DNA of 64,000 nt from Buchnera aphidicola (Muscaphis stroyani) (lineage in GTDB: Bacteria; Pseudomonadota; Gammaproteobacteria; Enterobacterales; Enterobacteriaceae), in assembly GCF_005080865.1 (NCBI RefSeq), contig NZ_CP034861.1, forward strand, positions 62,001 through 126,000, in the 5' to 3' direction. Shown one piece after another: positions 61,898 through 63,823 of this stretch (position 1 is its first letter; each line of letters starts with the position of its first letter). The notes below the pieces were generated by a model. That model was not told where the DNA came from, ran no database searches, and was given only the letters and a program-made list of their open reading frames with translations. Both the position numbers and the translations under genes were made by a program.

Positions 61898-63823
61898 ATG
61901 CCTGTAATAAGATTTTGCGATGGAAGTCAGCAGGTGTATAAACATTCTGTTTCATTAAGAAATATTATAAAAAATATAAAACCAAGTATAATAAAGTCCA
62001 TTATTTCTATTTCTGTAAATAATAATTTTGCAAATTTAGATCATTTAATAACACAAGATTCGTTTATATTGTTTTTTGATAAAAAAGATAAGAACTCATT
62101 GAAAATAATTCGACGTTCTTGTGCTCAATTATTAAGCTATGCTATTAAAATTATATGGCCTCTTTCTAAAATAGGTGAAAGTAACATTACAGAAAATGGT
62201 TTTTATTGTGATGTAGAATTAGATAATTCAATAATAGAAAAAGATCTTATCTTATTAGAAAAACAAATGCATGTGCTAATAAAAAAAGAATATACTATTT
62301 TTAATAAAACAATTTCTTTTAAAAAAGCATGTCAGATTTTTAAAAATAATTCTGAAATGTATAAAGTTTATTTAATAAATAAATTATCTGATCAAACAAA
62401 AATTTCTTTGTATTATCATGAAGATTATATAGACATTGATACAGGAATGCAGGTATTTAATATACAATTTTGTAACAATTTTAAGTTACAAAAAATAGGA
62501 GGAGTTTATTGGGATAACAATCATGAAAATAAAATGTTACAAAGAATTTATGGTACTGCTTGGGGGTCCAAAAAAGATCTAGAAGAACATTTAAAATATT
62601 TAATTGAAATAGAAAAAAGAGATCATAGAAAAATAGGAAAATCTCTCAATTTATATCATATGCAAGAAGAATCTCCAGGAATGATTTTTTGGCATAATTA
62701 TGGATGGATAATTTTCAATGAATTAAAAATGTTTGTTCGAGAAAAATTAAAAGAATATCAATATCAAGAGGTTAAAACACCGTTATTATTAGATAAGTCT
62801 ATATGGAAACAAAGTGGTCATTGGGACAATTATAAAGATGCTATTTTTACTACTTTATCAGAGCATCGTGAATATTGTATTAAACCAATGAATTGCCCTG
62901 CTCATATTCAAATTTTTAATTATGGATTAAAATCGTATCGAGATTTACCTATTCGAATATCAGAGTTTGGTAGTTGTCATCGCAATGAATCTTCAGGTTC
63001 TTTACATGGTTTAATGAGAGTTCGCAATTTTACTCAAGATGATGCTCATATATTTTGCACTGTAAATCAAGTTAGAAGTGAAATTAAAAATTGCATTAAA
63101 ATGGTATACGATTTGTATAGTATATTTAATTTTAAAAAGATATTAGTAAAATTTTCTACTCGACCAAAAAACCGAATTGGTAGTGATGAAATATGGGATC
63201 GGGCAGAAAAAGATTTGTCAGATTTGTTGATAGAAAATAATCTTTTATTTGAGTATCAAACAGGAGAAGGAGCATTTTATGGACCTAAAATTGAATTTGT
63301 TTTACAAGATTCTTTAAACAGGAACTGGCAGTGTGGCACTATTCAGCTTGATTTTTATTCTCCAATTCGTTTAAACGCATTCTATATTGATGAATATAAT
63401 AAAAGAAAAACACCTGTAATGATTCATCGTGCAATATTAGGTTCAATAGAACGATTTATAGGAATATTAATTGAGGAATGCTCTGGAAATTTGCCTACAT
63501 GGTTATCTCCCATACAAGTAGTTGTTATTAGCATTTCTAAAAAATACGCAGATTATGTGAAAAATTTAGAAAAAAAATTATCTAATCATAATATTCGCGT
63601 TAAATCAGATGTAAGAAATGAGAAAATAGGGTTTAAAATTCGAGAGCATACGTTACATCGAATTCCATATATTTTAGTGTGTGGTGAAAAAGAAATAAAT
63701 TTACAAAAAGTTTCAGTTCGTAATCGAAACGGTTACGATTTTGGAATGTTAAATATTGATTGTTTTATTAAAAAACTAAAAAAAGAAATTTTTATTAAAA
63801 GTTTTTATCAAATGGAGGAATAA
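61898..63823 (+). CDS. thrS: Threonyl-tRNA synthetase with a disabled editing site
   Basis: ThrS charges tRNA-Thr. The 641 residues match E. coli's 642, with TGS, editing, catalytic and anticodon domains all present. The catalytic zinc ligands are intact (CIKPMNCPAHIQIF, DDAHIFC, HRAILG), as is RVRNFTQDDAHIF. The N2 editing site, which removes serine from Ser-tRNA-Thr, has lost its key residues: E. coli HLLGH is QLLSY (residues 77-81), and CRGPH is DTGMQ (181-185). So charging should work but proofreading should not. The stop is three bases before the infC start, as in E. coli. Confidence 0.97.
   Translation: MPVIRFCDGSQQVYKHSVSLRNIIKNIKPSIIKSIISISVNNNFANLDHLITQDSFILFFDKKDKNSLKIIRRSCAQLLSYAIKIIWPLSKIGESNITENGFYCDVELDNSIIEKDLILLEKQMHVLIKKEYTIFNKTISFKKACQIFKNNSEMYKVYLINKLSDQTKISLYYHEDYIDIDTGMQVFNIQFCNNFKLQKIGGVYWDNNHENKMLQRIYGTAWGSKKDLEEHLKYLIEIEKRDHRKIGKSLNLYHMQEESPGMIFWHNYGWIIFNELKMFVREKLKEYQYQEVKTPLLLDKSIWKQSGHWDNYKDAIFTTLSEHREYCIKPMNCPAHIQIFNYGLKSYRDLPIRISEFGSCHRNESSGSLHGLMRVRNFTQDDAHIFCTVNQVRSEIKNCIKMVYDLYSIFNFKKILVKFSTRPKNRIGSDEIWDRAEKDLSDLLIENNLLFEYQTGEGAFYGPKIEFVLQDSLNRNWQCGTIQLDFYSPIRLNAFYIDEYNKRKTPVMIHRAILGSIERFIGILIEECSGNLPTWLSPIQVVVISISKKYADYVKNLEKKLSNHNIRVKSDVRNEKIGFKIREHTLHRIPYILVCGEKEINLQKVSVRNRNGYDFGMLNIDCFIKKLKKEIFIKSFYQMEE

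Follow-up and report, generated by a model that had tools for sequence, protein, structure and literature searches.

Apparent ancestral loss of threonyl-tRNA synthetase proofreading in Buchnera, with a replacement pocket that looks maintained

The threonyl-tRNA synthetase (ThrRS) of Buchnera aphidicola (Muscaphis stroyani) has lost all four catalytic residues of its editing site, and most of the residues found in their place are conserved throughout the genus. ThrRS proofreading was apparently lost in the Buchnera ancestor, and across the Buchnera examined the replacement pocket looks maintained, not decaying. To call the site simply eroded would leave out part of the picture, since its replacement residues are conserved across the genus. 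We consider it probable that editing was lost and that the N2 domain was kept as a repacked scaffold. The window, by which we mean the whole stretch of 64,000 nucleotides analyzed (positions 62,001 to 126,000 of contig NZ_CP034861.1, forward strand), belongs to an obligate symbiont with a small genome of 630,615 bp in three contigs. The two small contigs resemble the leu and trp plasmids of Buchnera aphidicola, the best hits having 80% and 77% identity. The features discussed below are as follows, in positions of the window.

61898..63823, + strand: thrS, threonyl-tRNA synthetase, 641 aa; intact open reading frame, the sole ThrRS gene found in the genome
61898..62083, + strand: N1 domain, about residues 1-62 (alignment to E. 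coli ThrRS)
62084..62566, + strand: N2 editing domain, about residues 63-223, catalytic residues replaced (profile match, alignment)
62114..62116, + strand: R73 (E. coli H73), codon CGT (alignment, codon reading)
62126..62128, + strand: Q77 (E. coli H77), codon CAA (alignment, codon reading)
62138..62140, + strand: Y81 (E. coli H81); Tyr in 36/36 Buchnera (alignment)
62207..62209, + strand: C104 (E. coli Y104); Cys in 33 and Ser in 3 of 36 Buchnera (alignment)
62438..62440, + strand: Asp at E. coli C182, codon GAT; Asp in 35 and Asn in 1 of 36 Buchnera
62444..62452, + strand: Gly-Met-Gln at E. coli G184-P185-H186; Gly and Gln in 36/36 Buchnera
62450..62452, + strand: Gln at E. coli H186, codon CAG (alignment, codon reading)
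62621..63496, + strand: catalytic domain, approximate border (profile match, alignment)
62894-62896, 63047-63049 and 63425-63427, + strand: zinc ligands Cys, His and His, kept (alignment)

The gene encodes a bacterial-type class II ThrRS, with strong profile scores for the class II core and the anticodon-binding domain and an end-to-end alignment to the solved E. coli ThrRS 1qf6 (E 1.1e-265). The N1 border (about residue 62) and the N2 borders (about residues 63 to 223) follow those of the E. coli enzyme. The editing-domain profile PF07973 barely passes in the window ThrRS, at 25.3 bits against a cut-off of 24; in a scan of the genome, ThrRS scored 30.1 bits and AlaRS 63.7. A second match to the ThrRS query covers residues 516-635 only, at 34%, and lies in a 572-codon frame of the kind in which the PF04073 search described below placed the ProRS insert. 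A frame error or pseudogene was considered for the window thrS and ruled out, the reading frame being intact.

Residue numbers are those of the 642-aa ThrRS of a larger-genome relative and equal E. coli numbering. In the alignment, the larger-genome relatives read HSCAHLLGH from H73 through H77 to H81, and then CRGPH from C182 to H186. The window enzyme carries H73R, H77Q, C182D and H186Q, and its pocket letters are R73, Q77, Y81, D182, T183, G184, M185 and Q186; K156 and D180 are present, and none of the set H73, H77, C182 and H186 that marks an editing-competent ThrRS remains. An earlier, sequence-only reading of this DNA had held that the four catalytic residues are lost, that CRGPH has become DTGMQ with the loss of C182 and H186, and that the catalytic zinc ligands and overall length are intact. 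The alignment bears this out, with C334, H385 and H511 kept and 641 aa aligned end to end. The same reading took the change from HLLGH to QLLSY to represent H73 and H77, when it actually records H77Q and H81Y. Its interval of 62126..62452 does enclose three of the four sites, but the true H73 codon ends 10 bases before that interval begins.

It had also called for an alignment across Buchnera strains, in which C182 and H186 proved to be absent from 36/36 Buchnera. Site 81 is Tyr and site 186 Gln in all 36, site 182 is Asp in 35 and Asn in 1, and site 77 is Gln in 34 and His in 2. Site 73 is far more diverse (Y26 R3 C3 H2 S1 N1), with H73 retained in 2 genomes, and site 183 is variable within the genus. 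D180 and G184 are kept in 36/36 and K156 in 35/36, with Arg in the remaining one; site 185 is M, L or I. The N2 domain is present in all 36, and no Buchnera row that covers residues 334, 385 or 511 has lost them (36, 36 and 35 rows, respectively). The Buchnera sequences group as a single clade on the tree of the ThrRS core, so one change of the pocket in the ancestor is the simplest account.

For comparison, a family sample of 149 genomes was used, from which 53 small genomes of at most 2.4 Mb (sizes rounded) were fetched and 52 scored; of the 94 larger genomes, the best-scoring 28 were read. We infer from their large genomes that these larger-genome relatives are free-living. All 28 have the full tetrad, and since C182 and H186 are absent from 36/36 Buchnera, the loss of the tetrad is not a matter of chance. 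Among the 52 small-genome relatives, 15 are intact, 26 are altered at one or more tetrad residues and 11 lack N1 and N2 altogether, the last encoding proteins of about 400-430 aa; several of the altered rows differ at one residue, and altered does not equal inactive. At or below 0.7 Mb (n=29, sizes rounded), 1 is intact, 18 are altered and 10 are without the domain. Absence of the domain requires 7 changes on a quick tree whose long branches are unstable. Genomes without N2 have one PF07973 match each, except for G111 with none; among the matches listed, the single match is AlaRS in G042, G150 and G165.

The replacements seen in these relatives hint at the routes that mutation offers. At site 186, altered relatives have Gln in 9, Leu in 2 and Met, Ser, Ile and Glu in 1 each, and never Tyr; at site 73, Tyr is the commonest replacement (10 of 24 replaced). 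Gln at 186 takes 6 changes on the family tree, a tree that is weak for counting independent events, and a mutational route shaping the replacements at 186 and 73 is suggested by these patterns. Of the scored small-genome relatives, 41 have the domain, and none of these carries Asp at 182. One relative, L103 (G125, 301-2226), shares Y73, Q77, Y81, C104, G184, M185 and Q186 with Buchnera but keeps C182. It is not adjacent to Buchnera on a careful tree, and its pocket could possibly be an intermediate through shared ancestry or the product of convergence.

A few loci showed peculiarities of their own. In the roughly 300-kb genome G136, the ThrRS match (L108) contains seven in-frame TGA codons, which hints that TGA is read there as tryptophan; no N1/N2 region was matched, and the locus, fragmented under table 11, was excluded from all alignments. 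Upstream of the 410-aa ThrRS L110 (G150) lies a weak stretch, interrupted by many stops, that matches the N-terminal domains collinearly at a nonsignificant E of 4; it may be what is left of the editing domain after decay. In the Buchnera genome G007, thrS lies at the contig start in two frames and pheT has several stops, both within 6 kb of the ends of the single contig; poor sequence quality where the contig ends join seems a likelier cause than biology. The split gene (L039) was excluded from trees, codon counts and dN/dS, and its first frame is within the residue counts of 36. L096 was left out of trees, and L040, a second copy of the G024 locus, was dropped.

The many different altered tetrads among small-genome relatives (26/52), and the loss of the domain in others (11/52), are what one would expect if the editing domain were simply under little selection and the Buchnera replacements were leftovers of drift. 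The variation at sites 73 and 183 within Buchnera agrees with this, as does the faster evolution of N2. By a simple method applied to non-independent pairs, dN/dS among Buchnera was 0.42 for N2, 0.41 for N1, 0.14 for the catalytic domain and 0.35 for the anticodon domain, with Buchnera dS probably compressed by A+T bias; the corresponding values among larger-genome relatives were 0.044, 0.086, 0.026 and 0.071. The ratio of N2 to N1 dN/dS is thus 1.02 in Buchnera vs 0.51 in the larger-genome relatives, roughly a doubling of the relative rate of N2. N2 is relaxed relative to N1, yet constrained; a dN/dS of 0.42, not 1, indicates that the domain is still under selection.

Evidence against such decay comes from the replaced positions themselves. 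Codon changes were counted by parsimony on a Buchnera tree of 35 sequences built from the catalytic and anticodon domains, and the comparison set comprised 46 N2 sites with one residue throughout the 28 larger-genome relatives and a replacement in Buchnera. These 46 sites have a median of 8 later amino acid changes. Sites 81, 186, 182, 77 and 104 have 0, 0, 1, 2 and 2, and five sites drawn at random from the 46 would total as few changes with p about 1e-4, these five having been picked after looking. For the tetrad, which was known beforehand, slowness is supported at p=0.026, and at p=0.003 without site 73, which drifts (10 later changes). Among the 26 radical replacements in N2 that date to the Buchnera stem (BLOSUM62 <=0), 186, 182, 77 and 104 are the four slowest. 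Former active-site positions in a randomly decaying domain should vary like other replaced sites, and these do not.

Nor is low mutation the reason at 77, 81, 104, 184 and 186, given that synonymous changes were found at each of them on the Buchnera tree; Q186 is encoded by CAA in 25 and CAG in 11, and G184 uses all four codons. At site 182 no synonymous change was seen (GAT 35, AAT 1), which makes the evidence for locking weaker there. Taken with the near-uniform Q186, Y81, D182 and Q77, these results make plain decay an unlikely explanation. It is worth noting that locking extends beyond the pocket: equally slow radical replacements are found in other domains, with 2/13 radical sites never changed later in N1 (6, 44), 3/18 in the catalytic domain (295, 297, 378) and 1/12 in the anticodon domain (637).

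We think it probable that the Ser-tRNAThr deacylase site of N2 was already inactive when the extant Buchnera lineages diverged. With an intact aminoacylation site, tRNAThr would still be charged normally, with removal of serine lost. With no protein found in the genome to take over, some serine would be expected at threonine codons. The former active site would have been refilled with a Buchnera-specific set (Q77, Y81, C104, D182, G184, M/L/I185 and Q186), held by purifying selection since the Buchnera ancestor, and the pocket would most likely now serve only the fold, with N2 acting as a scaffold that positions the tRNA. Several observations sit uneasily with this account. A locked pocket is equally expected from a function; dN/dS in N2 is about that of N1 and slightly above that of the anticodon domain; and the tetrad is not wholly locked, with 73 drifting and H73 and H77 each still present in 2 of 36. 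In addition, relatives live without N1 and N2, so a need for the scaffold would not be general.

One way for a locked pocket to reflect function is residual or altered editing, in which Asp182 and the two Gln orient water or the tRNA end for a substrate-assisted deacylation of Ser-tRNAThr. The near-invariance of K156, D180 and G184 beside the replaced residues, together with the locking itself, would be in keeping with this. Asp182 has no counterpart among the small-genome relatives, however, and we know of no enzyme with such a pocket (Asp182 plus Gln) that edits. Furthermore, PMC4041444 reports that editing by E. coli ThrRS depends critically on each of the four tetrad residues; it gives an editing kcat 7000-fold lower for H73A and 70-fold lower for H186A and links oxidation of C182 to an editing defect. 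We give residual editing a slim chance.

Alternatively, the former pocket may have been co-opted to bind or process a different molecule, perhaps a metabolite or some other misacylated tRNA. Radical replacements that were then locked would fit, as would retention of the domain in 36/36 Buchnera when it is dispensable in relatives. Against this, nothing points to a ligand, and a buried cavity that had been repacked would look no different. Moreover, the PheRS pocket also has a fixed replacement (Asn in 29/30 at the H265 position) beside drifting sites, suggesting that dead pockets share some structural cause. Of the readings considered here, co-option is the least probable. A related possibility, slimmer than residual editing, is that the pocket was rebuilt in the genus ancestor as a new site (Q77, Y81, C104, D182 and G-M-Q186) and kept for a function of its own; candidate roles would be binding of a charged tRNA end or of a metabolite, or clearing of another mischarged tRNA in a genus that lacks D-aminoacyl-tRNA deacylase (DTD).

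The sequence-only reading had expected serine to be mischarged at threonine codons and not removed, and the evidence supports this as the likely outcome. A free-standing editing protein that replaces the lost site would undercut it, as that reading had pointed out; none was found among the families tested. In the window genome, the AlaX-type family PF07973 matched only an 886-codon AlaRS frame and ThrRS, and one other Buchnera gave the same lack of a free-standing protein (2 genomes searched in all). The YbaK family (PF04073) occurs once per genome in 36/36 Buchnera, inside a ProRS-sized frame and never free-standing, and DTD (PF02580) occurs in 0/36. This leaves room for other deacylases or host-supplied proteins.

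A compensating change in the amino acid site was also considered and set aside: 24 positions within or near the active site were compared, and 20 of them show no change in any Buchnera row. Varying positions include 376 (V31 I5), 434 (W35 G1) and 509 (I31 M4), and Gly336Ala is private to the window genome among the 36 Buchnera, where NCPGH reads NCPAH (62900-62902). With threonine synthase (thrC) kept in 36/36, the symbiont can probably synthesize threonine, and we suggest no more than tentatively that serine mischarging is lower as a result.

Proofreading seems to have been lost selectively. In AlaRS, read like PheRS and LeuRS in 30 of the 36 Buchnera genomes, the two histidines of HxxxH are kept in 30/30, as are the cysteine and histidine of CxxxH, and the pockets of PheRS and LeuRS are altered. 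In PheRS (pheT loci L133-L162), the E334-aligned position varies widely beside the nearly fixed Asn. In LeuRS, the T252 position is L15 T13 I2, the D342 position N29 S1 and the D345 position D25 H5; the window-genome enzyme retains T252 and D345, and it is altered but not necessarily dead. Reference letters for PheRS and LeuRS came from the solved chains 9twr and 7n8y, with the residue numbers H265, E334, T252, D342 and D345. IleRS and ValRS of the window genome retain the editing motifs inspected. By analogy, the kept and lost set appears to fit the E. coli fitness ranking of ThrRS and AlaRS lesions: in the available text of PMC6918089, ThrRS C182A grows like the wild type and AlaRS C666A is impaired. 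The same text reports that forced, high-level Ser-for-Thr substitution is harmful in E. coli, which counts against our preferred account of lost editing and a retained scaffold.

The Buchnera case is of a known general kind, with a small obligate-symbiont genome, lost editing residues and no replacement protein among the families tested. Reportedly, Melnikov et al. (2018, PNAS), whose work reached us through reviews, found degenerated editing sites across host-restricted bacteria; the phenomenon is the same in kind and may already include Buchnera genomes. Editing-deficient mycoplasma ThrRS and degenerated editing domains in host-restricted bacteria are established in the accessible parts of PMC4014445, PMC7373986, PMC10057733 and PMC11020763, and the sequence-only reading was right that such losses are on record (PMC10057733, PMC7373986). 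We found no title or abstract on ThrRS editing in Buchnera in the open-licence literature, and what appears to be new is that the replacement pocket is fixed and locked across the genus. These findings suggest that an ancient obligate symbiont can settle into a stable and selective loss of proofreading, and that such loss is not always erosion in progress.

The E. coli ThrRS has the same full-length architecture and catalytic zinc ligands as the window enzyme, and the single losses C182A, H73A and H186A cripple its editing, as far as the available portions of PMC4041444 and PMC6918089 go. In Buchnera, all four residues have been replaced naturally (R, Q, D and Q in the window), with the loss fixed through the genus. 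Similar in pattern are the editing-defective ThrRS, PheRS and LeuRS of Mycoplasma (Li et al. 2011, as cited in the accessible parts of PMC4014445 and PMC7373986), the same three synthetases in a host-restricted bacterium of another phylum. There the loss was a measured activity, whereas in Buchnera it is read from sequence; Buchnera also differs in its intact AlaRS editing residues and in a ThrRS pocket that forms a conserved set. Finally, yeast mitochondria have a minimal ThrRS without an editing domain that aminoacylates (PMC4267643, available text), as do the 11 family relatives here. Unlike these minimal enzymes, Buchnera keeps and conserves N1 and N2, which poses the question of why an apparently dead active site should be so constant though relatives live without the whole domain.
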